A stretch of 64,000 bases of DNA from Polytrichum commune (Eukaryota > Streptophyta > Polytrichopsida > Polytrichales > Polytrichaceae). Positions 7,857-39,062 of this stretch are shown one piece after another. Both the position numbers and the translations under genes were made by a program. The stretch is from NCBI GenBank assembly GCA_950295325.1, contig OX485805.1:33405501-33469500 (forward strand). Direction: 5' to 3'. The notes under the pieces are model-generated. The model had not been told where the DNA came from. It ran no database searches and saw only the letters and a program-made list of their open reading frames with translations. Numbering within the stretch: the first letter of the stretch is position 1; each line of letters starts with the position of its first letter.

Positions 7857-8810
7857 CTATGATTTTGTTTTCAACTTTTTTATGATGAAATGATGTTGCA
7901 CATCAATATGTTTTGATCGATCATGGTTCGTGGGATTCTTGGTAAGAGCCATAGAACCTTGATTATTACACATGATCGTTATTGCCTCCTCTTGCATACA
8001 ACCTACGTCCTTCATTAGTTGCCTAAGCCAAATGGCCTCCCTCGTGCATTGGCTCATTGCAATGTACTATGCATTTGTTGTGCATTGTGCTATCGTTTGT
8101 TGTTCCACGACACAACCCCCTCTCCAGCAAGAAAGCCGTATCCAAAGGTAGACCTATGGTTTTTTACATCGCCGGCCCAATCCGCATTGGAATACCCTTG
8201 TAGGTTGATATGTTTGACGCCAATGAGCAATCTCATGTCAAAGATGCCCTTCAAGTATCGCATGATTCTCTTGACCGCCATCCAATGTATTGGACATGGT
8301 GTTGACATAAATTGGCTTACCACGCTTACCGCAAATGCGAGGTCCGGTCTTGTGGCCACCATCACGTACATCAACGATCCCACCGCTTCTTGATACAAAA
8401 TTTCTTTAATCACATGCAAATACTCTTCATGCTCCCCCTCCGAAAGCTTTGCCAATGAGGTCTTTGCATCAAGCGAGGTTCCAAAGGGTTTGCAATTCCC
8501 TATGCCGAATTGCTCCAAAATGCTTTCAATTTAATTATGTTGATGCATGATAATAATGCGGGTTACCCTATCCCTTTCAAAATGAATTCCAAGAAAGAAA
8601 TACAACTCGCCGAGGTCACTTATTTCAAATTTGTGTTTAAGGCTACACTTCAATTCGTTGATTATGTCCATATCGTTTGCCAAAATAATAAGGTTAAATA
8701 CATATATGATTATAATCACAATGTAGCGATAAGTTTGCAATAAATACAACGAGTGATCCGCATAATTCCTCATAAAAACTTTGTTCACAAAAATATGTGA
8801 ATGCATTTGT
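7857..8810 (-). mobile_element. Truncated Ty1/copia pol: reverse transcriptase end and RNase H
   Basis: Reading leftward, the translation gives the end of a copia reverse transcriptase (FVNKVFMRNYADHSLYLL, then LIILANDMDII, FEISDLGELYFFLGI), the connection region (LYQEAVGSLMYVMVATRPDL), the RNase H block (GYSNADWAGDVKNHRSTFGY) and its end (MALTKNPTNHDRSKHIDVQH). This order and spacing are typical of plant copia elements. The copy is dead: the frame is broken by a TAA at 8531-8533, by a frame shift with another stop after WNNKR near 8090, and by loss of everything 5' of the reverse transcriptase. The YVDD-like catalytic motif is degenerate (IYVFNLI). Its truncated end abuts the ATG of a plus-strand gene at 8814. 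Confidence 0.9.
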
Positions 8811-8813
8811 ACC

Positions 8814-10088
8814 ATGCCCTCGAGGGTTACTTCGAGGAAGGCCGTTGCCCCGGATACCTCTGCCACATCCTCGAAGAAGCCACATACTCTCTATTTGATT
8901 GAGAATGTGGACATGGGGGAGCTCATTGAGGATCTCATGAAGACCAAGGTTCTCCCTCCAGCTTACTGCCGCATTCAAAAATTCTTTACCAAGGTTTGTG
9001 TTCCGTTCTTTTGTTTTCTTCATTCATTTTATAGGATTCAATATCTCTTTCTTTATCTATATTTCTCTAAAATTTTGTTGTGCAGGTTGGAGCGGGCCAT
9101 ACTCGACTGAACGCCAAGCCAAAGGTTCACACGAGCATTGATATGCTCTTTGTAGACGTGCCCGAAAACATGTGCATGCCAAGAATCTCAACCTCTTCTT
9201 CGGATGTTCATGCGTGGAACAAGTGGTCTACCTCATACTTTGAGGTTTTGTTTGCCTTTGTAAATGCCATCTTCCATGACGACAATGCTATTGTGTTTGC
9301 ACACACCACTGATCATGATGTCTCTAGGTTAATTCACAACTAGGCGCACACATAAGATTTTTACGTTGCTGAAGACTGGTTTGGTATGAATTACCTCGAT
9401 ATCCAATGGGCCACTGTTCCTTTTGAGTTGGTAATTATCTTTAATCCTCCTCCACCTTTATTCTTGTTTCCCTTCTTGCATGATTGTATTCCTAACTCTT
9501 CTGTGCACATTTGGTGCAGACCTGCAAGTTCTTCATCAAGATATTCATTCAAACGGAATATTTCTTGAATGTACATACCTCGGACTTCGAGGAAGAGGAT
9601 TATAATCTCCAGAGGGATGGTTGGCTCAACAACTTCACTAAGGAGAAGAACCAGACTATGAGGGAGGACGGGGTGCCTTGGAAAGGTGCTCGTAAAAAAT
9701 GCTATAAGTTATTCTCCATCATTTTCTCAGGCCTCACGTACAAGGACGACATTATCATGGATTGACAATGTGACGTTAGTTTGTTCTTCAGCTTTGTATT
9801 TTTCAATATTGTACTTTTTCTTATACTTATTGCATTCTCCATTGATTTCAGTGATGTCACCTCATTGCATTCGATGTTTTCAGAGGTTCTATCATTGCAT
9901 GCCGCTCCATTCAATGCCATATTGTGGTGCTCAAGTCGGACATCGACATCTTCAAGGCCCTCCTCCTCCCCATACATGATCCTGAGCTGGAGCCCAATTC
10001 TCGGCATGTTGCTCCACATTGGGGGTCCGATTTTGCTCCTCCTCCTCGGAAGATGGCGAAGCGCAATTTTGATTTGTTGTGTTCGTAA
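8814..10088 (+). pseudogene. Unidentified multi-exon gene with two in-frame stops
   Basis: Four exons can be followed. Exon 1 is 8814-8993 (starts MPSRVTSRKAVAPDT, contains LIENVDMGELIEDLMKTKVL), exon 2 is 9086-9430, exon 3 starts at 9520, and a last coding block (about 9886-10088) contains VVLKSDIDIFKALLLPIHD and a basic PPPRKMAKRN end. The introns have GT...AG ends and the first three junctions are all phase 0, which supports a real gene. Exon 2 carries TAG (9341-9343) and TAA (9353-9355) in an otherwise coherent frame (IVFAHTTDHDVSRLIHN then DFYVAEDWFGMNYLDI), so this copy is probably a pseudogene. I do not recognise the family. Coding-like sequence may continue to about 10,400. Location beside other elements suggests it may belong to a transposon. 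Confidence 0.55.
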
Positions 10089-11044: not shown

Positions 11045-12768
11045 TCAACCATCTAACTCCACCTCTTGAAGTGACAATGCCCTACGCTTGTTGGTTACTG
11101 TAGCGGTTTTCCAAGTGTCAAAAATGCCATTCCAATCCATGAATTCAACTCCCAAACTGTTTAGGCTAACCTTCATCAATGCATCAAGTGTGTCAAGGTT
11201 CAGGCATGTTCTCCTTTCGCTCTTAACCCAATTCTGCTTTGAAAAATCACGCTCACAAACAACAGTGCTAGTAGGGAACACAAGTATGGCTTGCCATAGC
11301 GACATTAGGGTTGGCCAATTGATCTTAAACTCTCGGTCACGGCCACAAAAAACCCAAGCTTCATACATACTTTGGTGTTGACAAGTTGAAGATGACATCT
11401 CCACAAATTCGAGCAACAAAGAACAAAGCTCCACTTGAAATGTGTCACCAACCGGTTCAACCATTGCTCAGTTAAAGTGCATCGATCCAATGCATCCATG
11501 GGATAGTATTTTGGGCTAAAAACCCTAGCCGCATTAAAAATAGGCAAGTCGAGGAAACGATCATTTAGTGAGTCAATAACCTTTTGGACGTATAGTTTAC
11601 CAAGGGTGATGCAATCCTCCAACGAGCCCCCTACATCACACCCGGGCATAGAGTCATAGTGCAAAGTATGCACTTTCTCACAACCAAACCTATCAACATA
11701 CAAGATCTCTCCAGTTGGCACCACGTTGCGCAAAAAATTTCCAAATGTTTGGTTGTTGTGCCAAAACTTACACCCAAATAGTGTCTCCGCAACAAATTGA
11801 TTGTCACATCGATAGTAGAGGCTATGTATGTGATATCTACGAGATCAAACTGAAATTTCCGATTGAGCTTGTTCAATTCAAGTAGCACATCAACCAATAG
11901 ATGGATGAAGAATTGGAACTGCAAAGAGGTGATATTTGTGTACCATGCGCGTTCTTCAGCTTATCATGACTCCAAAATTGCAGGTATACAAAAAACCATT
12001 CTCCCCATGACCATGCCGCGTGATAGCCACCGTACGGAATGATTATGCAAAACCATTCGGGTCTCTTCGCGAAATGCAAGTAACAATTTCGCCAACGTGC
12101 CTCGCCAAATCACTGATCGTCCCAATCACTCATACACTTGATTCGTAGCTCGATCAATGAATCCAAGGCATGTAAATTCGTCATTAGCATCCTTCGCAGC
12201 TAAAGCCTCTCGGTGAGCTATGCAGTATGTTCCAACCAAATGGGTTACTAGATCTCGAAGTCGGGCCACCACTCCTTGATGCACACCAGTCATGCACGCC
12301 GCTCCATCTGTAGCTATGGCCACCAGCTTCAGAAGATCGAACCCAAGTCTTTCTAGTAATTCCTTAACGGACTGGAACATGATTTCCCCAGTTCCTCGTG
12401 ATAGAGGCATCAATTCTACGAACTGTACACACGTTGAACCAGAACCAACACCCGTCAAGTACAAACATACACAATAAGATGTGGTTCACATGTTCGATCA
12501 GTTGAATCAATAACGAATAAACTGGGTTGCTTTTGACCTCCTCAATAAGGCTCAAATATAAATTTTGAAATATTGCATCCAAGAACCCCATTGTTAAGGT
12601 CACATTTGCATACGATGAGTACTCAATGGAAGATGACATGTTGGAAGTAGCCAAGTGCATGTGAATTTTGCATTGGTCAACGTAAGCAAGTAATGGTTGA
12701 TTGTTGCTGATAACAAAATACAAGAGCTTCATAACTGTGAGAATTCTTCCATTCTCACGGTCCACCAT
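11045..12768 (-). pseudogene. hAT-superfamily transposase, central and C-terminal part, frame-shifted
   Basis: Read leftward in changing frames, the region contains the hAT core. A block SNPVYSLLI...STCVQFVELMPL is followed by LVAIATDGAACMTGVHQGVV, matching the conserved TDGA-x-x-M-x-G of hAT transposases; then an insertion-domain-like part (DSMPGCDVGGSLEDCITLG), and finally the C-terminal dimerisation domain (INWPTLMSLWQAILVFPTST followed by VVCERDFSKQNWVKSERRT and LDALMKVSLN). This arrangement resembles the ZNF862-like branch of hAT proteins. The coding frame shifts several times (near 12,450, 12,100, 11,900 and 11,700), so no single protein can be made. The N-terminal exon is at 14,849-15,844. 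Element termini were not found. Confidence 0.8.
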
Positions 12769-12979
12769 TGTTCAGAGGCCAGACTCAATGGGCGCCACAT
12801 GTCCCTTGTTTGATGGATGGTGCTTCGCAAGCCACCGTTGTCGTACAAGAAATGGTTTAATAAGTAAATATAGTGTGAAATATTTTGAGAGTAGGGTTTA
12901 AAACAAATAAAGATAAAGCTAAGAAAAATAAAGGTATAGACAAAAGGGAGGGGGGAGATTAGAGGAATGAGGGGGAAGA

Positions 12980-15844: not shown

Positions 15845-16455
15845 AATCAACCTTCTTTCACTGCAAAAATTTCTCACCAGCACATGATCCACATGCTCAG
15901 AACTCAGACACCGTGATCACAAGAGAGAGACACAATACTAGCAATGGAACTCTACTGCAACATACACGCCAAAAAAAATCTCCAGGTAAAAAAACTGCAT
16001 GATATCAGTCCAGGTGAGTTAAATTGTGAAAATGCTGACTGGTAATGTTTATTAGTCCAGAATAGCGATCGAAATTTAGTTCGTGAATCAAATTTTTGTT
16101 CCTCATTAATTTTTCAATGGGCTCTGGATTTTGCATAATTGCAGCTCGAGCATGAAAACATTGAGTTGATTGCAGCGACACTCATAACACATGTCAAGCC
16201 AAAACCTAACAGATTATCATATATCCCAGTTGCACAAACTTGACCTCAAACATACACCCTTCTTACGATCCCTCCACAACACACACACACACAATCTGTA
16301 TAAGCAATATACTAATCTCACTCACCCACTTCGAATACTCCCTCCTCGAGTCCTCGTCAAAATTCTTGATCGATTGAATATTCCTTCCGAAATAATAAGC
16401 TGCCGAAAATATAAGCTGCACCGAAGTATAAGCTGCCTGATCGATCAAGCTGCAC
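15845..16455. other. Upstream flank of the hAT gene; target region of the CACTA element
   Basis: Probable promoter side of the hAT gene, without a clear TATA box. From 16,395 there are several copies of ATAAGCTGCAC/ATAAGCTGCC words, which continue on the other side of the CACTA element from 30,514. A short CA repeat lies near 16,278-16,292. Confidence 0.45.
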
Positions 16456-16484
16456 CACTACAATAGATTGGGTATTTTGTGACT
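16456..16484 (+). repeat. Left terminal inverted repeat of the CACTA element
   Basis: 29 bp beginning CACTACAATAGATTGGG, matching the right terminus with one mismatch (T/C at base 9). Confidence 0.95.
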
Positions 16485-16760
16485 AGGGAAATATGACTGG
16501 GGATGACTGGTGACTACATGCAGTCACATTTTTCCAGGCCTCGACCTTTGGGGTGTACGAAATTCAAAAATATGACTCGCAGTCATATTTTACTGTCGTA
16601 TTTGGCAAATGTACTGTATACGGCATATGGGAATGACGACTGCCTTTATAGGGAACGACGGGGAACGTGTATGGTGGACGCACAGTCATATGTGGCAGTC
16701 ACATTTTTCTGCGAGTTATATTCTTCAGTCACATTCTGACTAGGACCATTTTTTTCCTTT
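16485..16760. repeat. Left subterminal repeat region
   Basis: Repeated ATGACT / AGTCAC / AGTCATATT words in both orientations. In CACTA elements such subterminal repeats are binding sites for the element's own TNPA-type protein. From about 16,760 to 17,197 the DNA is AT-rich and probably the 3' untranslated end of the TNP2 gene. Confidence 0.8.
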
Positions 16761-17990
16761 TTTTGGGCAGCCCTTGATAATTTAGGCTGCCCTAGACGGG
16801 CCTCTTGTGTTTTTGCCCCATGACTCATTATCTAGTATTATGGTTTGGATTATTTATTTAATAATGAAAGATTTTGGTCAAAATTAAGTACTTTGTGTGT
16901 TATAGTATGAACGGCAATGAAAATTGGGAATGACCCATGTTTATTTAATGAATAATTAATTGATTGATGTTTTAGGGAGTATAGGGGGGAAATTGGGGAG
17001 GAAATTTGATTCTTACTATTGCCAAAAGACTAATTGAACATGTATATAATTGAACTTAAATATATACCCACCTAAGTTTCATTTATACAACTTCTTGCTC
17101 GGACGGGAAGTCAATCACCGTCCGAGTCGCAAAGCTCGGAGTCATCTACCGATGTGTCGTCCGGTCCCTCTAGACATTCTAATACCTTGGCAACCACTCA
17201 TGGCCCTACTTCCATTGCATCGCCCAATATGGGTGTCTTCGGTACGATATCGTCATGTAAGGCCGTCACTTGTAATCCGGGAAAATCAGAAGTCCTACCT
17301 AGTGCTATGCATTGTACTTCATCTGTTCTTTGTTGTTTGGAGAATACCCAAACCCCTCTCGGTTCCTTACGCAAAACAACTTCCCATCCACTTTTCGCGA
17401 CGTCAGGTGCAAAAAAAACTTGTTTGATATGGAAAGGAAAGGCAAATGATTGTGCTGAGTAAGGAATCAATCTGTCAAAGTTTACAATGGTGAAACCATA
17501 GTCGTCGCGCTTCATCGTCGCCCCATCTCCCTTAATGTTTGCAACGACCCAATTGCAATAGAGGACCACTACCTCGAAGAATCCAGAGTCCACAGAGAGT
17601 ATTTCCTCAACCCAACCCACATACTCCAACTCCGCTGCCTTTGGATTTGTGTCCTTCAGGCCCGAGCGACATAATTGTCGAAATGTTGCGGCCACCCCAG
17701 AGTCCATCGTTGTCAATTGCGCCTGTGCGCTTTGGACACGGATGTGGTTTCCAAACGCATACATGGATCGATACGACTTCGCTGCATCCGATGGAGGTAA
17801 CATCAAGGCCCTAACGTCTTCTTGTACCTCCTCAGTCCCTTCTTCTATGGCGCGCACCACTGCTTTTGGAAACCAAATGTGGAAATCCTCGTCACGCAAC
17901 TCCGCTGGGTACATTATCCGCGCCTTCCGCTTCTTGCGCTTGTATTCATGCCGCTCACATTCCCGCCGTGACATGTCATCCTCGTGTTTC

Positions 17991-18282
17991 CTGCATTTTG
18001 GATACAGCCCAACACATCATTACCCGTGACATTCTGAAATCACTAAGGGCAGTCATATTATGCATACAGCAGTAGTCGTACTGTGTCGCGATAACTACAA
18101 CGAAATGCATATTTTACGACTACATTTTGTGATTGTACTCAGTCATATATCCCAAAATATGACTGAGTGCAGTCATAAATTTTGGTCACAAAAGATGAGT
18201 TTTGTTGTAGTTCGTATGGATTGGACTGTTGTTCTAAGAGAGGTCATGCATTTAAGGTTCTTCCACTAAAATGTGAACTCAC
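17991..18282 (-). repeat. TNP2 intron 3 filled with AGTCAT repeats
   Basis: The intron runs from donor GTGAGT to acceptor ATGCAG and contains several AGTCATA/TATGACT words at 18,045-18,180, the same motif as the subterminal regions. Confidence 0.7.
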
Positions 18283-19181
18283 CTCCTCCATTTTTCCAGT
18301 GGTGCCGCATTGTTCACCACGAACTCATGTATCCATTGTCGAAGGTCGGATGGGAGATGACACGCCCGCCCGCCACCTTCGAGGATCTCATCATACATTG
18401 ATGGGTCTTCTTTGTCATCCTACACTCTTCGAGTGGTGACTGTATATTCTTGCATATACTCTGTACAAAATCCCAATGCCTCTACTATGGCATAGCCTTC
18501 AGCCATGCAACCCTCTGGTCGAGTACGGTTTCGGACATACCCTTTGAGAGTCTTCAGGTACCTCTCTATAGGGTGCATCCAACGTGTATGTACGGGTCCA
18601 CAAATTTCCACTTCCTCCACGAGATGCAGGACCAAATGGCTCATGATGTCAAAAAATGATGGCGGGAATTCTTTTTCCAACATGCATAGTGCTATGGCCG
18701 CTTCACACCTCATCTCATGTATTGTTGCGGGATCAATGGACTTAGCACACACCCTTCTGAATACACGGCTCAACATTATTATTGATGTCCGCACTTCCTT
18801 TTCCATTGTGCAGCGCACACATAGTGCCAACACTTGCTGCATGAGGACATGGTAGTCATGGGATTTTAGGCCTTTCATTGTCCCATCCACGTTTACGCGC
18901 TTCTTCAACTGTCCCACATAGTGAGTGGGGGTTCGCAATGCACGCACTTGCTCCACAAAGACTTCACGCTCTTCTTTCGTCATAACGTAAGAGGACTGAG
19001 GTAGAATCACGCTACCGGGTTTTGTTCCTGCTACGGGCCAAAGATGCGGGCGTATACCCGCCTCCTTCATGTCTAGACGAACTCCAATTGTATCATTCTC
19101 TCCAAATATGATTTTCATTACATTCTCAGCGATGTTTTTCTCACAGTGCATAACATCGAGTGTGTGTCGAATTAGAAGATC

Positions 19182-19357
19182 CTGTACAGTGACTCGAGCT
19201 AGTGAGAAATTTGCCGGCGTGAATCACAATATCACTACGTGCAATCATGTGACTGTACATGACTACGTCCACTCACATAATACTCATAAACAATATTACT
19301 ATATGCAATTATGTGACTACGTCCAGTCACTTAATTCGGCTAATAATATACACGTAC
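19182..19357 (-). repeat. TNP2 intron 2 with AGTCAC/ATGTGACT repeats
   Basis: The 176-bp intron (donor GTACGT, acceptor TGTACAG) contains at least four ATGTGACT/AGTCAC words spaced by about 30-50 bp. Confidence 0.7.
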
Positions 19358-21442
19358 TTTCCAGTATGGAAGGTCATATAGACATGTCCTCCTCTTCACT
19401 CCATGATTGTGTACGGGGTCTGTCGTCTGCCCAGTTTGGTTTCTGTAGTGTTTTTTTGTCCACTCTTCTCGCTTGTTCGCATATCGCAATTGCTCTCGAC
19501 CACTCATCCTTCTTGGCGGTGGTCTCATCTCCGGCTGCCCATCAAAATTGGACCTCTGTCGTCTCCATTGGTGGGTCATTGGCAGTTGTCGTCTATGTCC
19601 AAGGTAAACATTTTTTTTCAACGCTTTGGAACGCCGTGTTGCCACGTTGGGGCCACACACGGGGCAAGCCCTATGTCCTTTTGTTACTTGCCCGGAAATC
19701 AAGCCGTACGCCGGGAAGTCGTTCACCGTCCACAAAAACATGCCATGTAGCTTAAATGTTTTCTCTTTGGAGTTTCCTTGTGATCTGTCCAAGCAGTCGA
19801 TCCCTTTCCAAAGCTCTTGGAGCTCCTCAATCAAAGGTGCCATGTACACATCCACGTTCCTGTCCCTCACACTCTCTTTTCCTGGTATGATTAGCGCAAG
19901 CATCATTACGAAGTTTTTGGTCACTAACCAAGGGGGGAGATTGTAGTTCAGCATGACCACGGGCCAAGTAGAGTGGTTGAGACTTTGGTTCCTAAATGGA
20001 TTTACGCCATCCAGTGCAAGGCCAAGCCTAACGTTCCGTTCATCTTCCGCAAACCACGGCCACCTATTATTTACGTGGTCCCAAGCCTTCAAGTCCACCA
20101 CGGACCTCATCACCTTGTCTTTACTTTTCCCTCCTACATGCCACTTCATTAGCTCCGCGATCCGTGTGCAGCTGTACATCCTTCACAAACGAGGAATCAA
20201 AGGAAAATATCTCATAACTTTGACTGGAATTGTACTGGAGTTCTCTACAAAGCGCGATTTGTGGCATGTTGGGCACTCCGTTGTATTCTCCAATTCTTTC
20301 CGAAACAAACAACATCCATCTCTACACGCATGTATTGAGTTGTAGGACAACCCCAACTTCATCAACAAGCCTTTCGCCTCGTTAAATGATTTCGGTAGTG
20401 TGTTGTCCTTGGGTAAAATTGTCTCCTTCAACAACTTCAACAACTCATCCACAAAGTTGTTTGGTACGGCGAAGGTGGTGCAACACAATAGTATCAAGAG
20501 TGTCGATGTGAGATGGTTCGAGGGGCTTCCCTCATACAGTGGAGTTCCAGCTTCGTATAAGAGATTTTGGTGGTCTACCCCACTGGGGTCCTCACTGTTC
20601 ATGGTACTCCCTCTTGTTTCCATGGGGTCATTCATTTCTTCCCTTTCCCCCTTACTACCATCACTGTCCCTCGTTGTGAAACCATCCTCCCCTTTATCGT
20701 CTTCAACCAATGCATTCCCGAGTTCCTCATGTATGGTGGCTTCGGTTTCGTGTCCGTCATAATTGAGGCCATCGTACTTGCCGAAGCACTCTGCCACTAT
20801 ACGTAGAACCTCAACTTCTCCATCATGTCCATCGTTTGTGTTAGGGTATGTCTGGCTTCTTTGCCCAGTCCGCGGTACATGGGAGAACAAGTCAATCGGG
20901 CTGTACTCGTCCTGCAGAGAGTGATAAATTTGTGCGCACGTTATATATTTTCGCTTTGGCAGAAATATACGATAAGGATTCATAACAATGACAAACATAG
21001 ACCACGGATTGTATATAACATGGACATATTATATACAAATGTATGAAAACGACAGGGAGCAATCACAAGTAGTCTTGTATCACATGGACGAGTCATAAAT
21101 TTGTGACTTCTGTGTTACATGGTTCTGTCATAAAATGCGCGCTGTATCTAACGAGGGGCAATCATGAAACGCCGAATATAACATGAACGTGTAACATGCG
21201 GGGGGGGGGGGGGGTGTTCATCGATTATGAAGACAAGAGTGTGTCAGGTAAAAGAAATTTCATGCAACATACAACGGAAAACCAATGGATGTAAAAAATT
21301 GGTCATGTTCCACGTACACATGTATACCGTGGTCCGGACATGTATACAAAATTTTGTCAAAACAAAACATGACTTGGTGTAGTCATGTTAGTGAACACAT
21401 GGCACACTTACTCATTCCTAATATGGACTAATGGGTGCCAGC

Positions 21443-22341
21443 CTACAATGCGGTGTGCGGGTTCAAAGAGTAGTGTGCATACAACTCTTCTCCGACCAAA
21501 ATGTCCTTTGTGGCTAAGGTGATTACATACCCCCATTCATGTTTGTTCCAGGGTTTTGGCAACATGCAAAATTTCCACACCACATTTCCTATTTCTTTGC
21601 GTCCTATGGAACTATTTATGAAGCCAGCGACATTCCCCTTCATTACATCTCCATCGATGTACAAGTCCGGCTCAACTTGCATCGCATATGACTTCACTCG
21701 AGGTTGTGCCTTCTTCAAAGCTCTGTATTCTCCCAAGGTGTATTGTGGTCCTACAAATGGAAGCAGTTCCTCTCCCTCTTTGGCGGGTTGAAGTGCAAAG
21801 AGACCCCAACCCATGAATGGGAAGTTGGACACCCTTACTTCCCATTCTCTATTCCAGTATGAAAACTTTATAAGTTTTGGGATGGGCCCGTCACACCACT
21901 GTCCGTCATACACGTTTGACCCCCATGTCTGCAAGGCTCGTACTCTTGCAAACGTTGTGTTTGGCATTGACTGTGAAGGCGTTTTGTATCCTCCTAGAAA
22001 CTTTCTCAGGGATGTCTTGCAAGCAGCTTTTACAATGGGTCTCCATCGGGCCTACAAAATTCATGTACACAAAGATGAAAACTCGCTCATAGCAAGACCA
22101 CCCGCTTACGCTCATTCAAAAGTCGTTTCATGGAATGACTCACCAAGATAGACGTTGTAAACACAGGGTCCCTTTTTTTGCTGCGAAGATGCTTTCGGAT
22201 TGTGGCTCGATCGAGGACTTTCCCTCCTGCACACTCCATGCATGGGCATGGGTACTTGGATAGCCGCATTGCGTCTGCTTGGACCTCTTCTTCTTGCCAT
22301 AACTGTAGATGCTTCAAGCTTTCGACCTCCCCTCCTGCCAT
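21443..22341 (-). CDS. SET-domain protein encoded in the CACTA element, sharing the TNP2 first exon
   Basis: Inside TNP2 intron 1 an intact exon (22,051-21,443) encodes 202 residues ending in a normal stop. It is preceded by an acceptor (TTTTGTAG). Joining it to exon 1 (22,341-22,144, donor GTGAGT) removes a 92-bp intron, keeps phase 0 and gives 268 residues: zinc-knuckle start (PCPCMEC, residues 31-37), then a SET-like domain with FMGWGLFA (GWG at 147-149), YIDGDVMKGNVAGFINSS (197-214) and GEELYAHY (253-260). SET domains transfer methyl groups from S-adenosylmethionine to lysines of histones or other proteins. The usual NHSC-x-PN core is changed here to NSSIGRKEIGN, so substrate and activity are uncertain. 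Pre-SET and post-SET cysteines are not evident. The intact frame beside two broken transposase genes is notable. Confidence 0.75.
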
Positions 22342-22471
22342 CCTGTGGTGTGCACGGCATACGGGGCGGGTCAATTTGTGATATGGGGATACCTTACAAG
22401 GAGTGAGTGCTCACATGCGCGCAGTCACTTGAATATGTGGATACATATGAAAGGGGAGTCAAATAACCCAA

Positions 22472-22572
22472 GGCAGTCATATAACACACGGGAGTCATAT
22501 AACACATGGCAGTCATATAACACACGGGAGTCATATAACACATGGAAGTCATATAACACACGGGAGTCATAT
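22472..22572. repeat. 18-bp tandem array next to the divergent promoters
   Basis: About five and a half copies of an 18-bp unit, GGCAGTCATATAACACAC with variants GGGAGTCATATAACACAT. It lies about 130 bp upstream of the shared first exon of the TNP2 and SET genes, so it may be a binding array for a repeat-binding protein acting on that promoter. Confidence 0.85.
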
Positions 22573-23215
22573 ATTGATGGTAATTGAATAATTATTTATG
22601 ATGTCCCTAAGTTTACACGGAATTCAAGGAAATTCAAAAAGTTGAAGCCCAAACTATATTGGGTTATGAAACTTACGCCCATAACCAGATTTACCCTCTT
22701 TTCTTTTGAGCATTAAATTTAGGGATAAGTTTTCATAATCTCATTTAGATATTCTAAATTTGAGTACTTAACAAAAATTCCAATTCAACCCGAGCTGACT
22801 TTTCACCCTGTTTGCCTAATTTTAAGCGGCCCCTAAATATATCATAATCGATTCGGCCTGATTCATATACCCCAGTTATACGTAAGTGTGGTGAAGCCCA
22901 TACTTTTTTGGGTAAAAGTAATTTCAACGAGGCCCTAAGGAAATCCACAATCGGACCCCTTTTTACCCTGTTCTTGAAATCGAGCTGACTTTTCACCCTG
23001 TTTGCCTAATTTTAAGCGGCCCCTAAATATATTGTAATCGATTCGGCCTGATTCATATACCCCAGTTATACGTAAGTGTGGTGAAGCCCATACTTTTTTG
23101 GGTAAAAGTAATTTCAACGGGGCCCTAAGTTAATTCCATTAATTAAAATTTAGGGTTAATTAGGCTTACTGGATATAAAAATTGAGTATTGTAATTACTG
23201 AGATTCCATTTTTAT
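22573..23215. repeat. Spacer with a 190-bp-period direct duplication
   Basis: A block of about 148 bp beginning CGAGCTGACTTTTCACCCTG occurs at 22,791-22,938 and again, nearly identical, at 22,981-23,129. No AGTCAT repeats are present here, so this stretch may be a later insertion in the CACTA element. Confidence 0.75.
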
Positions 23216-23225
23216 AATTTATGAA

Positions 23226-23480
23226 AATCTCTCTCTCCCTCCCTCCCTCCCTCTCCCTCTCCCTCTCCCTCTCCCTCTCTCCCCCTCTGCCTCCCTCCCT
23301 CTCCCTCTCCCTCTCTCCCTCTCTCCCCCTCTGCCTCCCTCCCTCTCCCTCCCCTCCCTCCCCTCCCTCCCCTCCCTCCCTGCGCTCTCTCCCTTCCTCG
23401 GACATCTGTCCTGTAAAGCCGACTCTGTCTCTCTCCCTCCTTCCCTCCCTCCCTCCCCGCGCTCTCTCCCTTCCTCCTTG
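23226..23480 (+). repeat. CT-rich microsatellite
   Basis: Nearly pure pyrimidine DNA of CTCTCC, CCCT and CCTC units. The open frames here on both strands are artefacts of the repeat. Confidence 0.9.
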
Positions 23481-23529
23481 GCCATCTAACCTGTATCGCC
23501 GAACACCTAAAGCTCTCGCCTTCTACCAG

Positions 23530-24310
23530 ATTCGAATTCGGCAGTGCTGCTTGAAGGATTCCGGTGCAGTGCTGGGTTCGGAGCATCAGGTAAGTGTAGG
23601 GTTCGGTGCTGCTTGAAGGATTCCGGTTCAGTGCTGGGTTCGGAGCATCAGAGCCATGTAGGGTTCGGTGTTGCTTGAAGGATTCGGTGCAGTGCTGGGT
23701 TCGGTGCTTAAAGGATTCGGTTAACTTTTTGGGTTCGGTGCTTGAAGGATTGCCTACAATGTTGGGTTCGGAGCATCAGAATAGTGCTGGGTTCGGTGCT
23801 GCTTGAAGGATTCGGTGCCACAGCCAAGTTCGGAGCCGGAGATAAGTGCTGGGTCCGTTTCTAAGTTGAAGGATTCGGTGCAGTGCTCACAAGGAGCATC
23901 AGACAAGTGTTGGGTCCGTTTCAAAATTGATTATGCAGTGCTCACAAGGAGCATCAGACAAGTGCTGGGTCCGTTTCAAAATTGATTATGCAGTGCTCAC
24001 AAGGAGATTCGGTGCAGTGCTGGGTTCGGTGCTCTATTCGGACAGTGGCTACTCGGTGCTGTATCGGTGTGTGGGTGCCCTTGTGAGACTGCATGAAGTG
24101 TCTCTAGTTTCGGCCACAGCTAAGTTCGGTTCAGTAAAGGTTCGGTGTTGGGTTCGCTGCAGTGTCCTCCATTCTTCTACTTCGGTGCAGATCCGGTGCT
24201 GGGTGCACTTTGATCCTTCGGTGGTGGGTGTACTTCCATCCTGTGCTCTGATCGGTGTGTGGATACTTCGGTGTTGGGTCTACCCGGCAGCACCTCTTAA
24301 CTTTTTGGGT
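23530..24310 (+). repeat. Degenerate minisatellite of GTGCTGGGTTCGG units
   Basis: Imperfect copies of a unit of roughly 45-60 bp built from TTCGGTGCTGCTTGAAGGAT, GTGCAGTGCTGGGTTCGG and AGCATCAGA words. It grades from well-kept copies near 23,550-23,820 to scattered words near 24,200. The open frames across it come from the repeat period. Confidence 0.75.
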
Positions 24311-24761
24311 TGAGGGTACCCCTAATTCGGCGTCTCTCTCTCTTCAAGATTGAGAGGGAGGGCTCTCCCTCTGACTACCCTTTTCTCTCACTCTCAAAGG
24401 TTGTGCACTCTCTCATCTCCAAGGCTAAGATTTTAGGTTAACTATTAATACTTCAAAAATCTCAAAACTTGTACTTTGAAAGACAACATGTAAATTGTGT
24501 AATGATCTATCCTAATTCGGACACTAAATCTGGTTTCGGAGTGGATTCCTCTAGATGGCTCATACTAATACCCCACACACACAAAGTAATACGAAGAGGA
24601 GAAAGGTGAGCTCACTTGAATTCGCAACTTCCGCGTCGTTCAGTTGTGGAGGTGCTGGTTGTTCGACACCTCCTCCGCTCACATGTAGCTGGAACAGCAG
24701 CAATGGGGACAGCCTTATTGTCCTCAATTAACACTAATGTGCATTTGGGTATTGTAGAATC
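24311..24761 (+). promoter_or_regulatory. Probable promoter and 5' leader of the rightward CACTA gene
   Basis: A pyrimidine-rich stretch (24,330-24,430) is followed by a leader. An acceptor-like GGTATTGTAG at about 24,748-24,757 lies just before the ATG at 24,762, suggesting a spliced 5' leader. No clear TATA box was chosen. Confidence 0.35.
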
Positions 24762-24959
24762 ATGGAGGAGGAAATTCCGGAGTATGAGAGGATGCGGAAG
24801 AAAAACATCGAGGCCAACAACCAGAAGCTGCGGGAACTGGGTCTGTCACTGATTGGGACTTCTCATTTCAAGAGGCATGAGGACCTCGGGTATGTATGAC
24901 CAAACCCTAATACAACGGACCCGCTACAACTAGGGTTGCTTATGCATTTTGAAACTTTT

Positions 24960-25560
24960 AAGAGTCCTTGTAGTCATAAATTGCATACAACTTGCTGAAG
25001 ACATGACTGTTTGCAGTCATAGTTCATAGTATTATGACTCCCTGTAGTCATAGTTCAGAATATTATGACTCACTGTAGTCATACTTTAAGGTCATTATGA
25101 CACAGTCCAGTCACATTTTTGTGTGTATGACTCTTCCCAGTCCTAAAAATATTGTAATTTCTTCCCACATCCATGTTCTTGTGCATCGGATGTGGCTTCT
25201 ATTGGTTTTCTATGATCGTGCATTTATGATCATGTGTATGAATAATGTTTTTGTTTGATATCACATAATGAATGAATATTTCCTGACTACCCAACAGTCC
25301 AGAGTTACCAAATTTGAAAGGGAATTGTGTATGTGTATGTGTATGTGTTGACAATGTGTATGTGTTGTCAACTTAGCAATAGGTTCTAACAATTACAATG
25401 GAATCCTGAACATAGTTTCAGTAATAGACAATCAATTTCAATTTTTATTTTCAGCCAATCTCATTACATGTTGTGAACAATTTCATGATTATGACTCCTC
25501 CCAGTCATACTAATTTTCACCCACATGACTCATTTGAGTCATGTTTCAGCATTGACATGT
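24960..25560 (+). repeat. AGTCAT repeats in intron 1 of the Ptta-like gene
   Basis: Many TATGACT...AGTCATA pairs, densest at 24,970-25,140 and again at 25,487-25,560. The middle of the intron is AT-rich and lacks them. Confidence 0.8.
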
Positions 25561-26469
25561 GTTGGAGTCACAATTTTTGTGAGATGTAATGTCCGTCTAA
25601 TGATCCCTGCTCGTACTGAACAGTGTGGTTCCCGCGACTTCCACCAAAAATGCCAAAATGAACAATGTACTAGTCAATTTGATAACAAAAATAGTTAATC
25701 TGCCTGATGGCATGCAGGTGGAAGTATTTCGCACAATTGCTAGTTTCCCGGCAATTTCATTGCCGGTTTTGGAAATGACTTCGAATGAGGTTGCGCGTGT
25801 TTTTGAGAGCAGCCGTGGCGTGCCTGTGGGAGAGCCAGGCCCATCTCTAGAGCAGGGTGGTGGCTGGGGTGTGACCACTCGAGCGAAGGGAAAAAAACAA
25901 CTTCCTGAAACGGACCTCGATGATGACGAGGACGAAGAGGACGAAGAGGAGACTTCTGAGGACGAGCGGCCCAAACCAAGGAGGCGGAAGGTGAAAACAT
26001 ACATCTCCGTAGTTTCTTGCATTTGCTTCCGCATTCAGTCGTTCGCGTTACATGACTATAGGTAGTCATATGACTTTGTCCAGTCATATTATGTAACTTA
26101 GTACAGTCATGTAGGGTGACTCCATGCAGTCATATAGTGTATTGTACGTCTGGGTGTGTAGGGAAATGCAAATGAACCCAGGTCATGGCCGTTGCAATCT
26201 AGAGGAAAGAAGGGCAAGGCGGTCAATGAGGAGGATATCCTGCTGTCCCAAGACATGCAAGATACTCTCCGGGCTTGCGAGATGGACGCCAACGACGCAT
26301 CAGTGGACAGCGAGGAGGAAGAGGATGGCGTAGGGCATCATAACGAGCTCCTTGACGAGTTGGAGCTCCGGGAAGTAAGCATTTTGCGGCGTATGGCTAA
26401 AAAAGGAGCCGATCCGACACAACTTCGCGAGAAGGTGCGTTGCCTTGGCCGGACGGCAGAGGTTCAAGG

Positions 26470-28000
26470 TGTGAGCCCAAAATGATGCCCACATGTGGTG
26501 ATTAACTTTTCGAAACCAATTTTAGTTTGACTTTTATGTGTTATGATTATTCACAAAACATAAAAATAGTGAAGTGTGGTTTAGATTTAAGTTTAGGCTT
26601 TAGAATGTGTTGTGTGATTATTTCAAGGTTGAATTCAATAAGAGTATGCCTTGATAATGTGAGTAGGGGGTAAGGTGAAGCAAGGTGAGCTCCGCGGGTT
26701 AAATGCCCACTTTTGGATCCACCTTGTTAGTTTAGGAAGAAGGAAGCTTGGTGGAAGGGGATTAGTCCCTACTTTAGAGGTGAAGGTTAAGGGATTTTGA
26801 TTGGAGGTGCTAATCCTCTCACCCTATTCTTACCTCTCTCTCCCTCTCTCCCTCTCTCCCTCTTTACTACTTAAGGTGGTTTCTCTCTTATTTTTCTCTC
26901 TCTCCATCAAGCGCTCTCAAGGGAGCAAGCTCTTAAGAGCTTGAGCCACGTGTGTGGGTTATTAGTTTTTAGTGAAGTTAATTAGTTAAGCTCTCTCTCT
27001 CAATGCCTCCCAAGTGAGTGCACTCTTAGAGCTTGAGAGTACCTAGGAAGATTAGGTAGTTGTTAGTGACGTTAGTGTGGTAGGTTAGTTCATTAGTTAA
27101 GGAGAGAAGAAAGGAAAAAAAAATAAAAAAAAATAAAAAAAATTAGAGAATGTTTGATTAGTAGATAAGGTGGTGTGTTAAGGGCAATTTAGAGGCAGAA
27201 TTATCAAGTTAGCTAAGGCCAACTGGTAGACCTCGGCTGCGAATGCAGCTCAGCTGCTAGAGGAGGGCAGCACCGAGGACTAATGGGCAGCAGATTGCCG
27301 AGAGCTAATGGGCAGCAGACTGCCGAGAGCTAATTAGTTGCAAGCCACACTTAGGCTGCGACTGCAGCCCAGCTGCTGGAGGAGGATAGCACCGAGGACT
27401 AATGGGCAGCATACTGCCCGAGAGCTAATTAGTTGCAAGCCACACTTAGGCTGCGACTGCAGCCCAGCTGCTGAAGGAGGACAGCACCGAGGACTAATGG
27501 GCAGCAGACTGCCCGAGAGCTAATTAGTTGCAAACCACCATTAGGATATCTATGGGTTAGCAAGGCTAAGCCCAATTAGTGGGCGTTAGCATATAAAAAA
27601 CTAGATTACATTAGGCCATTTTAGGGGTGGCTAAGTAGTTAGACCCATTAGGCTAGTTTGTGCCATGTGTGGGTTTGTATGAGTGTATTTAGCCGTTGAG
27701 AAAAGTGTTTTTCAACACTTGAACCTCCCGGTCAAAATAACTCACTTGCATTATTAATGGAGAATGAGGAAGATTCTTGCAATGACAAGAAAAAGGAAGT
27801 GAAGATTAAACGAGCGAGGGGAATGTCCTTAAGGGCATGTGTGGCTAAAGTCGCGGGTTGGACTTTTGAGAAAGCCAACTCTAGCACAAGCCAAGAGGCC
27901 AACATTAATAAAGCACAATGAGTGAGACAATACGTGTTCATTCGAACATGAAAATTACCTTGCACATGGTTCAATGTTGTAATATATAAATGTGATTTTC
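26470..28000. repeat. Unrelated insertion in intron 3, LTR-like
   Basis: This stretch lacks AGTCAT words. It contains a CT-rich block (26,833-26,910) with a nearby TTTACTACTTAAGG, and a purine-rich block (27,105-27,145), a composition common in plant LTRs. It begins near TGTGAGCCC and may end near CTTGCACA, which would be TG...CA ends, but I could not find an exact 5-bp target duplication. A solo LTR or rearranged remnant is the best guess. Confidence 0.4.
27229..27540 (+). repeat. Tandem repeat of about 95 bp
   Basis: Three copies marked by CACCGAGGACTAATGGGCAG at about 27,271, 27,390 and 27,485, each followed by GAGAGCTAATTAGTTGCAA and GGCTGCGACTGCAGCCCAG; the first copy has an extra internal duplication. 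Confidence 0.8.
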
Positions 28001-28629
28001 AAGTCATCACCCGGACTAGGATGCTTAAGGGTGGTGGATTTGGCCTCACACAAGGCAACGACGGAAACGCGCGGCATCGACAGTCGAAGTTGAAGAACCT
28101 TAGGCGGTCCTTGAAGAAGAGTGACGAGCTGCACACTTCCAGTGGTGGTCAGCGTTTGTGGGTCGACGTCGACGAGGCCGGGTGCCCGACAGGGATACAC
28201 AGGCCTGATTGGCTGACGCGACTACGCAGGTACTCTCGCGACCTCGACTGGAGCGTCGACAACTTTAGGGCACACCCACGGCCCTTGTTGTTGGCGATTA
28301 AAGACAAGATGGCCGCACGATTCGAGTACCGTGGTGGACTCGGAGACGTGCCTGAAGCTATTTTTTTCAGATTTTGCGCCAGCAGATGCGGACTCGCAGG
28401 TCGAACATGAAGAAACTCATAGAGAGTTGTGGCCCGCTCCCACCGTATGTGAAGAAGGCGCACGTCGACAACTTCAAGCGCTTAATTGCCCGGACGGACA
28501 AAATCGCGGAAGCTACGCGCATGAAAGCCGCACGGCAAACCGTGTAGACCTTGTCGTATTCTGGAAGGTCCGAGGAGGAGGTGCGCTCTAGACTGGTAAG
28601 TGATTTTGTGTACAAGTCATTCAAACATA

Positions 28630-28911
28630 AATAGGTGACAACCTGCAGTCATACAATTCAGTCATATAATGAATGATATCACTTTACATAGTCATACCGT
28701 GAGTCATATGGCCATAGATAGTCACATGTGACCTGAATATGACTTCACCTAGTCATATTCAGAGACATATGACTTCACCTAGTCATATGTTGAGTAATAT
28801 GACTTCAGGTAGTCATATTATGAGTAATATGACTTTAGCTAGTCATATTCTGAGTCATATGACTTTACCTAGTCATATTCTGAGTCATATGACTTTACCT
28901 AGTCATATTTA
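28630..28911 (+). repeat. AGTCAT array in intron 4 of the Ptta-like gene
   Basis: A near-perfect tandem array with a period of about 30 bp: ATATGACTT(C/T)ACCTAGTCAT and variants, most regular at 28,735-28,911. Each unit is itself an inverted pair (ATGACT...AGTCAT). Confidence 0.85.
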
Positions 28912-29679
28912 GTATGTTTACGTATTTTTCATGGATCCACAGTTGCTCCTTTCACAGGCCGCAGATTTAAAGCGGCCCCCGACGCAGCTGGAGGTGGAGA
29001 CCGAGCTAGCGACACCCGGGAAATCAGGACGGGGCCGGTCATCGTCGTCCAGAGGGCCACTCCCAAATGCAAAAGCGGGAGATAGAGCCCTCTTTGTTAC
29101 GCGGAGCGAGCTGCACGACTTCCAGGATAGCATGAAGGGGGAGATGGAAGATGTGAAGGCTATGGTGAAGCAGCTGTTGTTGGAGGTGCAGAAGCGAACG
29201 ACGGCCACGAACATGGAACCGCCAGCCACGGCGGAAGCGGGAGTCGACGTGATCCAAGTAACCGCCGAAAAGGTTGCGTCTGTATATCCTCTAGTACTCG
29301 CTTCGAGTACATGTATGGAACACCTTTGCTTCAGCAATATTGTATGTCATGCATGAAGATCGTTCACTAATACACGCCTCATGTGGATCATTAGAATATG
29401 CAGGCAACTGGGAAGTCGGCGGAATCCGGGCATACTGGGTCGACTGCGGCATCGGAGCCCTGCGTAACACCCTAGCAGATATGGGTTGCCAACCCGTCAT
29501 TCAAAAGAAGAAACCCATAGCCAAGAAGAGGAAGGGCGAAGCGGAGAAGCTATTGGCGGAACGCGATGCACGGCCTACCCGGCGTGCAATGGCTCGACAG
29601 AAAGAGGTTGGCATTCATGTCATATGCACATTATACTTGTCGGATAGTTATACTTACGTGCAAGCTTTATGTCTTTAAT

Positions 29680-30484
29680 TTGGCCTCAACATTGGACAGT
29701 CATATGACTATGTCACATAATATGACTCTAGGCATTCATGTTATACGACTATAGGCGGTCATACTATATGACTCACTGCAGTCATAAAACATGAGAAGTA
29801 GCAGTCATATAACATGACATGAGGTTATCACAAGCAGTCATGTAGCACATGACTTGAATATGACGTCATTGCTTGGAATGTGCCACGAAATGTGACTGAC
29901 ATTCAGAATTGCAAGTAATACGAATCTAACTCAATACAGTTACAACAACGCACAAAGAATTACGCAATGTGACTCTCCATCTACGCGAATATCACTCCAT
30001 CATGTCACATTGTGCATCACATGTTACTAAGAATATGACTACAGAACGTCATATAATAATGTCATCCCCGCAGGAAATGTGACCAACGCCCCAAAAAACA
30101 TGACTACAAGCAGTAAAAAAACTAGCAGTCACATTCCACGTGGCCTGCCACGTCGGCAAAATTATGACACATGCAAGTCATATTGCACGTCAGCAGAAAA
30201 CATGACTACATGGAGTCATATGCCACGTCGGTTTGGTATTTTTTCTGCCCGGGCAGGTCAAAAAAAGGCACAGACTCCAAGGCTAGTCAAGGTATGCCCC
30301 ACGTGCAGTGGGGATCGTAGAATCTGTCATTTTATACGCCTCCACAACCGTATATATTCATATGACTCATGTCCGAAGCGACTCGTCGGTAATGACTAGA
30401 CCCAGTCACCGCGCGCGTCATCCTCATCCGGAGCCTCGTCAGTCATATTTTGGGATTTTATGACTTAAGGCAGTCATAAATTAC
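29680..30484. repeat. Right subterminal repeat region of the CACTA element
   Basis: Dense ATGACT/AGTCAT and ATGTGACT/AGTCACAT words, including a block with CACGTGGCCTGCCACGTC (30,137-30,154). A piece of the same region, inverted, lies at 34,629-34,840. Confidence 0.85.
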
Positions 30485-30513
30485 AGTCACAAAATACCCA
30501 ATCTGTTGTAGTG
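30485..30513 (-). repeat. Right terminal inverted repeat of the CACTA element
   Basis: The complement begins CACTACAACAGATTGGG and pairs with 16,456-16,484 with one mismatch; it is followed by the target duplication CAC. Confidence 0.95.
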
Positions 30514-32042
30514 CACCGAAAGGATTTGTATAAGCTGCACTAGATTGAATCAGAAGCTTGAGTGGTCCCAGATCACCGAAAATTTGAAGTTTGAGAAAAA
30601 CTTAGAAACTATAAGCTCCACCAGACTGAATCAGAAGCTTGACTGGTCTAACTAATTGGAAGCTTTCAAGTTTAAACCACCGGAACTTGGAAGCTAAATC
30701 ATTCGGGAATCGGAATTCTCAAGTTTTGAACTAATTCCCATCTGGATCTGAGATCTGGAGCCCAAAGTTAGACAACCGGAGTTAAACAACTACTTGAGAT
30801 GATGAACAATACTTGAAGGGTATTGTTTATCCAACACTTCAAGTGACGGGAGCACTTAGACATGAGGATTATGTTTTGAAGGGTTGTTTTCCTTGAGGTA
30901 TTTTTTGAAGTCCCAAAACCCATTTGAAGGGCACTGAAGACTTCAATTTCGAGCATTGATTCTGGTTTACAATCAAGGACGAGGTGACGGATGATTTGAC
31001 CCACTACACGGCCTCTCATGATGCTTCTTCATCTTGAAATCCCACTTCAAATGATGGCTCCCGTACATTCCAATTTGATTTCACCTGACAAATTCCAATT
31101 CTTCTCACAATATCAAATCGATGCTAATTGAGAGGTGCATTGTTGGTAGGCAAATCAAAGTCAACTTGTCAATTCAAGTTTTGAGATTAGTAAAAAAATT
31201 GGAAATCATTCCTTATATTTCACAAGTTCTCTCTTATAAAGTTTGCACACTTTTCTCTTTAGTTGTGTCCGGTATATTTCTAGGCCTTTGCTAATTTTGG
31301 TAGACTTTCTTATTCTTGATTTCGCATGTCTTTGTTCTAGTCTCTAAGTTTGTTGGATATCTCCAAGCACCTAGGTTAATGTTTCCAAGTTTAGAATTTT
31401 TGATCATTTTGTTGTTATCTCTTAGTTTGGAATTCATGTGTTATTTTGTTGTTCCCTTCATCCTTGGCAATTGCAATCGGCAATTGCAATCGGTAATTAT
31501 TATTATTATTGTTTTCCTATCTTCTAATTTTGAGTAAGCTTTCGGTTGTTTCTTTTAATCTTCAAATTTTAAGCATCTTATCTTTTAATTTTGAATAACC
31601 TTTTGTTCGTTTTACTATCTTCAAATTTTCATGTAACCATTACGTTGTTTTGCCCTATCTTCTACTTTCAAATGATTTCTTGGTCATTTTTACTATCTTC
31701 TAATACTTGGAGTCCAAGTGTTTTGTTGTTCTATCTTCTAAGACTTGGAATCCAAGTTTGGATAATTTCTCTAAGTCCTTTGGCCTTCAAAGGTTTCTCT
31801 AGATGCCCTCCAAGAAGGTTTCAAAAGGTCTTCCTAAAAGTCTTCAAAGAGCCTTCAAAAGAATACGCTTCCGATAGGTCTCTATGGCGCTCACGTAGGA
31901 TGCTTATTGTCAAATGAGGTGCCATATGTGCCCTCTATGCTACCTTTATATAGGGTTTAGAGTATGTGAATTCTTTGATGGGGTGGTTATTCTTCCCTCT
32001 CCTATTATCAAATATTCCAACTACATAACATTATTCATATCT
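30514..32042. other. Repetitive AT-rich flank, no gene
   Basis: 30,525-30,660 has two copies of AGA(T/C)TGAATCAGAAGCTTGA and ATAAGCT words that continue the target-site repeat left of the CACTA element. 31,370-31,790 is a loose repeat of CTATCTTCTAATTTTG-like words at roughly 50-60-bp spacing. Open frames here are Phe/Leu-rich by composition. Confidence 0.5.
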
Positions 32043-38689: not shown

Positions 38690-39062
38690 CACTTGTATAA
38701 AGAGCACAGTTATTCTCTATTTTCAAACCACACATTTTGTATGGGCTTGTTGCTTGTAAGCCTGAAGAGAAGAACGGAGACTTCTCATCAGCTTAGTTGA
38801 GATGTGTGAGGAATCCACCTCATGATAGTTCTTTGCATCAACTACTTTTTGAGTTTGTTCCTACCCATAGTTTTCCACAACTTTTGAAGACACTCACTTG
38901 TTATGGACGGATTTTTTCAATTTTTATTTCGAGGATGTGAAGTCATATTTAAGGCTGTACATTGTTTGTTGTAGTTGATGCCTCATTTAATATTGTAGTT
39001 GATTGTTGTGAAGAGCTAGTAGTGTTTCTGATATACTGTTTAGATTAAAGTGAACAGAAACG
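38690..39062 (+). promoter_or_regulatory. Putative promoter and 5' leader of the AP2 gene
   Basis: A TATA-like word (TATAAA at about 38,696) lies about 365 bp before the ATG. The sequence between has no upstream frame of interest. The start codon context is AGAAACGATGTG. Confidence 0.35.

Follow-up and report, generated by a model that had tools for sequence, protein, structure and literature searches.

Two features of the locus described here are already known, each from other elements: SET genes in DNA transposons, and the alternative splicing of En/Spm around an open reading frame (ORF) in intron 1. For maize En/Spm, published accounts describe a large ORF in the first intron which is included by alternative splicing (PMC2613891, PMC1636069), and TNPA is described in the latter as reactivating a methylated promoter (PMC1636069). 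Thus, CACTA elements are already known to influence their own epigenetic state. Among the DNA transposons of Phytophthora, HarbingerS and a SET-bearing MuDR are cited as carriers of a gene for a SET histone methyltransferase (PMC12730594). In plants, the ways in which transposons escape or manage silencing have been worked out in detail for few systems, namely VANC and TNPA.

The window, that is, the whole stretch of 64,000 nucleotides that we analysed, contains a complete CACTA element of 14,058 bp (16456..30513), delimited by terminal repeats and a target-site duplication. The terminal inverted repeats, at 16456..16484 on the plus strand (the side of the transposase gene TNP2) and 30485..30513 on the minus strand, read CACTACAA[T/C]AGATTGGGTATTTTGTGACT and are identical at 28 of 29 bp; they are flanked by the duplicated target CAC (16453..16455 and 30514..30516). 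A pattern search for such ends in the genome recovered the same pair (C3:33421956-33436013). With CACTA-type ends, a 3-bp target-site duplication, a Transposase_21 domain and subterminal repeats, the element has the attributes of the CACTA (EnSpm) type. The motif TATGACT/AGTCATA occurs 60 times in the 14-kb element and 21 times in the remaining 50 kb (4.3 vs 0.4 per kb). By motif count there is a subterminal array at 28660..28914, and a tandem array with the same motif lies at 22454..22573 on the minus strand, 110-230 bp upstream of the ATG of the exon that we call exon 1. Each of 20 other copies of the element that we read has 3-10 such motifs within 400 bp upstream of this ATG.

ORFs on the plus strand, opposite to TNP2, outline a possible second gene of several exons at 24762..29678, which we take to be TNPA-like; a Pfam scan of the ORFs at 24.7-29.7 kb gave no match above the cut-off. 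Inside this region there are tandem repeats with CTGCTGCCCATTAG (27235-27545), perhaps a nested insert. Furthermore, a 149-bp repeat with 98% identity (22791-22939 and 22981-23129) is found upstream of exon 1, within the element. Outside the element, the window holds an AP2-like ORF at 39054-40346 (E=2.5e-7, slightly below the Pfam cut-off) and minus-strand ORFs at 8093-8890 and 11048-12771, presumably Copia and hAT remnants; three ORFs within 11308-12771 had no match in a Pfam scan. The CACTA domains, the AP2-like ORF and the appearance of the SET proteins in the genome all fit a plant host. Rfam and tRNA scans of the 64-kb window found nothing.

The TNP2 gene lies on the minus strand. According to Pfam it consists of exon 2 with Transposase_21 (19358..20911, E=8.7e-72, 3' boundary set by eye), exon 3 with DUF4218 (18283..19181, E=2.5e-36) and a DUF4216-like exon 4 (17111..17990, E=7.5e-7, 30.1 bits against a cut-off of 30.6), the boundaries of exons 3 and 4 being set by eye. 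The first-pass annotation had counted two stops in the TNP2 frame. There are in fact three, namely at 20185-20183 in exon 2, at 18422-18420 in exon 3 and at 17200-17198 in exon 4, the last of which is missing in all 19 other copies with an aligned exon 4.

The first intron of this gene encloses, as had been proposed, an uninterrupted SET-like exon (21443..22051, minus strand), which we read as an alternative terminal exon. Its 202 codons are free of stops (22051-21446) and followed by a stop codon at 21445-21443, and it matches Pfam SET with 36.7 bits (cut-off 22.4, E=6.1e-9). An open frame of at least 202 codons turned up in only 10 of 2000 random sequences matched to the intron in dinucleotide composition. 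With codon usage trained on TNP2, the SET frame scores 61.8 bits, and each of the five other frames -3.6 or less. Another frame across the SET stop (21408-21460) reads IVGWHPLVHIRNE; this could be accidental or the trace of a former alternative C-terminus.

Upstream of both genes lies exon 1 (22144..22341, minus strand), with 66 codons from the ATG at 22341 and a zinc-knuckle-like CPCMEC...HLR, which both putative products would share. Its donor GTGAGT at 22143 is in phase 0 and scores among the best 5%, and of the AGs in the window the SET acceptor at 22052 is in the best 1.2% and the TNP2 acceptor at 20912 in the best 0.03%, the latter having the top acceptor score in the region; note that these scores come from a splice matrix entered by hand. 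The joins of exon 1 to the SET exon (22051) and to the TNP2 body (20911) are both in phase 0, so that the predicted in-phase splicing to either exon agrees with the sequence.

It had also been noted that SET is intact while TNP2 is broken. While the SET frame is indeed open, this contrast in a single copy is no sign of selection: at the stop rate of TNP2, a stretch of 268 codons would escape stops with a chance of 0.49-0.62. Since the intact frame of the window copy is little evidence alone, we rejected it as proof and took the evidence for selection from other copies.

A search of the 407.8-Mb genome (64 contigs) with the SET exon gave at least 140 loci after merging (150 scored of 205 candidates), many of them fragments or decayed. 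We then related SET to TNP2, for which 138 of 658 candidates were scored (one row of 19 residues was left out of the pairing with SET). SET lies upstream of TNP2, on the same strand and within 8 kb, in 77 of the 138 scored copies, and within 8 kb downstream in none of them. Ranked by TNP2 identity, SET is upstream in 36/39 copies at 85% or more, 18/31 at 60-85%, 12/26 at 55-60% and 11/19 at 50-55%; the 61 copies with no SET upstream include all 23 below 50%. Exon 1, scored in 150 of 405 candidates, has a SET match within 1.5 kb in 98 copies, with a median gap of 95 bp and with 75 of the 98 gaps at 91-127 bp. Another 26 copies reach TNP2 without a scored SET between, and the last 26 reach neither. 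Since 61/138 TNP2 copies and 26/150 exon 1 copies do without SET, it is not required for CACTA transposition in general.

The pattern search yielded 114 CACTA ends in the genome and none in the reversed control. From the 100 ends listed we could pair 33 elements: 25 contain SET and TNP2, one TNP2 alone, one SET alone and six neither. Thus 25 of the 27 two-ended elements with either gene hold both, unlike the transposase-less elements of the Pack-CACTA type. The six elements with neither gene are 5.8-7.5 kb long (for example G000:C6:39029013-39036030) and are probably non-autonomous derivatives. Matching 3-bp target-site duplications flank 15 of the 17 other elements for which both flanks were read. 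Judged by such ends and flanks, the family members are mobile elements with SET travelling along. Besides the subfamily of the window copy we distinguish three others, in which SET is 44-58% identical to it. By these counts the SET exon is a trait of the lineage and not an oddity. Furthermore, of 119 scored Pfam SET matches genome-wide, 90 fall in transposon SET loci, and some of the 29 others are fragments or single exons; counts of SET genes in such genomes can therefore mislead annotators. Relatives of SET outside the host genome were absent from the viral contigs, genome contigs and plasmids searched, and relatives of TNP2 from the viral contigs.

Next, we compared the splice layout between copies. 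The close copies are the window copy and 20 others, the best-scoring among 38 further SET loci with at least 85% identity; for the diverged copies we read 20 of about 100 loci in three subfamilies, mostly picked for a full-length open SET. Because the copies read are the best-scoring or most complete ones, they are in better condition than the average, and their intactness is no sample of the family. Among the close copies, 20/21 have GTGAGT or GTAAGT as donor and one has GTGACT, and both the SET and the TNP2 acceptor AG are kept in 21/21. Neither the short intron of 92 bp between exon 1 and the SET exon (22052..22143, minus strand) nor the SET exon itself has an indel in any of the 21, whereas the rest of intron 1 (20912..21442) has indels in 20/20 others. 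In 19/20 diverged copies an exon 1 of the form CPCxxC...HLR precedes SET, with GT right after the same codon; two of these 19 have a stop inside exon 1, and in the copy L046 exon 1 with a donor was not found. By eye, the SET ORFs have no common ATG upstream of the domain, so exon 1 must supply the start. Kept in four subfamilies, this layout is evidently old.

A comparison of dN/dS between SET and TNP2 had been suggested as a check; for SET the values point to purifying selection. SET gives 0.38 (95% 0.22-0.62) in 21 close copies, which is near the 0.26-0.31 of TNP2 exons 2-4 (14-17 copies). In the other subfamilies SET has 0.24 (8 copies), 0.45 (7) and 0.28 (3), with upper bounds of 0.33, 0.68 and 0.51; between subfamilies it is 0.20, with dS close to saturation. 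A site-based test, in which each variable site is counted once, finds amino-acid changes in SET below the unconstrained expectation (p=1.2e-7, equal rates). The pattern of substitutions thus indicates that SET is under purifying selection within four subfamilies. The lowest value belongs to exon 1 (0.067, 0.02-0.16, 19 close copies). Elsewhere exon 1 has 0.22 and 0.28 in two SET-bearing subfamilies and 0.05 in three SET-less copies. As it is less extreme elsewhere, we do not claim that its double use makes exon 1 the slowest part. There is a stop in SET in 6/21 close copies and a stop or indel in exon 1 in 4/21, as expected for aging copies.

Note that dN/dS was calculated pairwise, which ignores the tree and transition bias, and that the site-based test likewise ignores transition bias. 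In the close-copy dN/dS, stop codons were masked and copies with indels dropped (exon 1: L020, L022; exon 2: L010, L012, L016, L019, L027; exon 3: L010, L013, L016, L018; exon 4: L012, L019, L026), after the exclusion of copies with less than 90% aligned (exon 2: L009, L020; exon 3: L019, L020; exon 4: L020); the site-based test retained aligned copies with indels. L043 and L045, with a partial SET, were excluded from dN/dS and from the SET tree.

With moderate confidence, we explain these observations by a long-standing SET exon in a CACTA transposase gene that yields two products and serves self-directed chromatin editing against silencing. We start from what the genome records: the element, its exon layout and the conservation of this layout in four subfamilies, the selection on SET, and an exon 1 in the TNP2 of SET-less relatives. 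In an autonomous-type CACTA lineage, a single promoter and a single first exon would serve both products. Default splicing of exon 1 to the near SET exon would give a protein of about 268 residues, a zinc-knuckle-like module followed by SET, and splicing past SET would give TNP2. From the anatomy of the genome we infer both messages and both proteins. The shared module would probably take the SET protein where the transposase goes, to element DNA or a partner protein; such binding by exon 1 is putative, its domain score being below the Pfam cut-off. The SET domain would most likely methylate a histone lysine, or else one in a transposition protein, and this methylation would keep the element usable despite host silencing. 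The TATGACT/AGTCATA motifs upstream of exon 1 could be the target for self-regulation, as tandem targets are for VANC according to PMC5735166. Every step beyond the splice layout, including catalysis, substrate and the anti-silencing purpose, is conditional in this way. A bolder form is a switch in which one targeting exon is spliced to the transposase or, alternatively, to a histone methyltransferase that keeps the element's own copies open; we offer it only tentatively. It is a similarly speculative part of the switch reading that the system is old enough for transposon SETs to outnumber the other scored SET matches of the genome by about 3:1.

What kind of SET is it? Each of the ten aligned copies has a Pfam SET match with E<=1, the best at 2.2e-10, and across four subfamilies all ten share MGWGL, an Asn in the FIN/YIN motif and the Tyr in GEELxxxY; we read these as the GxG, the NHxxC Asn and the GEELxxxY Tyr of the SET motifs. 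On the other hand, all 25 transposon rows have Ser or Asn in place of the NHSC His, and by eye we see in the transposon SETs neither pre-SET or post-SET cysteine clusters nor the Cys of NHSC. Enzyme activity may therefore be lost or altered. The interpretation of the first-pass annotation is partly supported: architecture and copies agree with a shared exon 1 followed by either SET or TNP2, and the methyltransferase that it named is a candidate by homology in which the His, one canonical motif residue, is replaced throughout the family. PHROGs and NCBIfam searches gave weak matches only. A bacterial SET effector appears at low score in the NCBIfam and PDB lists, which we read as general SET resemblance, and two of the ten copies (A2 members) weakly match Pfam Ntox17 (best E=8e-4), probably by chance.

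Potentially, the SET protein could be real and selected and yet non-catalytic, a binding or decoy module on a SET fold. The replaced His and the lack of visible post-SET cysteines are in its favour, and SET-24 is described as a catalytically inactive SET protein that acts in chromatin (PMC12886896). However, a dead domain need not keep GWG, Asn and the last Tyr of GEELxxxY (Y194 of the SET ORF), which are invariant in 10/10 copies. PRDM-type enzymes are moreover active without an NHSC motif. On balance we hold a non-catalytic SET to be a serious candidate, albeit an unlikely one.

The proposed direction of the effect could also be wrong: the SET protein may silence or tame the element, as a form of self-restraint, or mark insertion sites. 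SET enzymes write repressive marks as well as active ones. In a search of PDB, the profile of the SET family is nearest to SET1 and ASH1L (E ~1e-5), followed by MLL (5e-4), fungal EZH2 (7e-4), SUV39H2 (0.06) and EHMT2 (0.12). SET1, ASH1L and MLL are activating-type enzymes, and the profile may thus lean weakly to this type, with the repressive type close behind; EZH2, which is of the latter type, is also the second-nearest solved chain for the window SET. Maize TNPA, as described in PMC1636069, both reactivates and represses its own promoter. We regard self-restraint or site marking as quite improbable.

To which gene does exon 1 belong? This exon matches Transpos_assoc (PF13963) with E=3e-4 and 21.4 bits, below the Pfam cut-off of 27.7. 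A U-box match (23.0 bits, cut-off 21.4) was rejected: it covers the same residues as the Transpos_assoc match, and joining exon 1 to SET raises the score by only about 1 bit (24.1), while joining it to TNP2 lowers it by 2; it is probably a chance resemblance. Among the seven SET-less TNP2 copies that we read, three (L049-L051) show an exon 1 separated from TNP2 by an intron; in two (L053, L054) a single open frame, of 606 and 615 aa, covers both the knuckle and the TNP2 N-terminus; L055 carries a related knuckle upstream of TNP2; and in L052 a clear exon 1 was not found. As SET-less relatives keep exon 1 with TNP2 alone, it belongs to the transposase, and SET therefore entered, or was lost from, a pre-existing TNP2 intron. 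In the TNP2 tree (14 rows) the SET-less L049-L052 cluster with L058, a copy that has SET (100/98). This suggests that SET was lost at least once or gained a second time; the deeper forks of the tree give no order of gain and loss.

These relatives, and the knuckle and TNP2 in one frame in two copies, also speak against the idea that in practice nothing is shared, with exon 1 spliced only to SET and a different start for TNP2 in SET-bearing elements. In favour of this idea, the donor lies 92 bp from the SET acceptor, as against 1.2 kb from the TNP2 acceptor, so SET would be joined by default. On the other hand, the top-scoring TNP2 acceptor has its AG in 21/21 copies, and we give the absence of sharing a small chance.

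The far less probable case of a fused or two-cistron message, with exon 1, SET as an internal exon and TNP2, can draw on a GTAAGT at 21411, just past the SET stop in the window, and on the maize tnpD mRNA, which is described as two tandem ORFs (PMC1636069). However, the GTAAGT is kept in only 3 of 20 other copies and gone in 17, a stop closes the SET frame and the sites do not match in phase, so we rejected SET as a fused or internal exon.

As to origin, the transposon SETs group in a single clade (100/100), which a long branch separates from the five host SETs and the one fungal EZH2 in the tree. Six host SETs were taken of the 29 non-transposon SET matches, with names such as ATX-like being our own reading, and L064, interrupted by an intron-like stretch, was omitted from the tree. 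The transposon SETs are 24-33% identical to the five aligned, and none is near. For comparison, when a fungal EZH2 core of similar length is the query, human EZH2 and members of other SET subfamilies score 51-69 bits (among the best 60 of 115 matches), whereas the window SET has no match above 20.3 bits against the same protein structures. Hence, SET was not recently copied from a conserved gene of the host. Although CACTA elements do take up host genes (PMC8616336, PMC13317346), a one-off capture carried as passive cargo, as in Pack-CACTA, is contradicted by at least 140 loci, the same layout and purifying selection in each of four subfamilies and the low identity to host SETs, and we dismiss it as very unlikely indeed. 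The search for the SET exon in related elements, which had been set as a check on such an oddity, found it present, often intact, in a conserved splice layout and under purifying selection.

In summary, we see a CACTA family with a histone-modifier-like exon in intron 1 of its transposase gene, which suggests, but does not prove, self-directed chromatin editing. If this is true, a selected SET enzyme inside a transposase gene would be a direct example, open to test, of histone marks written by a transposon.

Among known systems, SETMAR (Metnase) is a host gene fused to a mariner transposase and is not mobile with its SET. It resembles the present case in that a SET domain is joined to a transposase (PMC4593633). 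HarbingerS and the SET-bearing MuDR, compared by description only, differ from the CACTA elements with SET in superfamily and in their oomycete host. A TET/JBP dioxygenase is carried by a fungal EnSpm, among other transposons. This EnSpm is again a CACTA-type element with an enzyme for epigenetic marks and a proposed escape from silencing; its enzyme is for DNA demethylation, its hosts are fungi, and the account in PMC12730594 does not describe sharing of a transposase exon. VANDAL elements of Arabidopsis, with VANC, are plant DNA transposons with their own anti-silencing protein, whose targets are often tandem repeats (PMC5735166). They are, however, of the MuDR type (PMC12730594), and VANC lowers DNA methylation and is not described as a SET protein in the account at hand (PMC5735166). 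In one open-access library, outside which most subscription journals and Repbase Reports lie, we found no SET-bearing CACTA element in print. Maize En/Spm is likewise a CACTA element in which one transcription unit gives several proteins, with an alternative ORF in intron 1 (PMC2613891, PMC1636069), and the window element has the corresponding alternative exon, nested in the first intron and joinable in frame. The products of En/Spm, however, are the transposase and TNPA, whereas the nested exon of the window element is a SET and would share the first coding exon of the transposase. To our knowledge it is this apparent sharing of a transposase exon with a SET protein, kept in four CACTA subfamilies, that is new.
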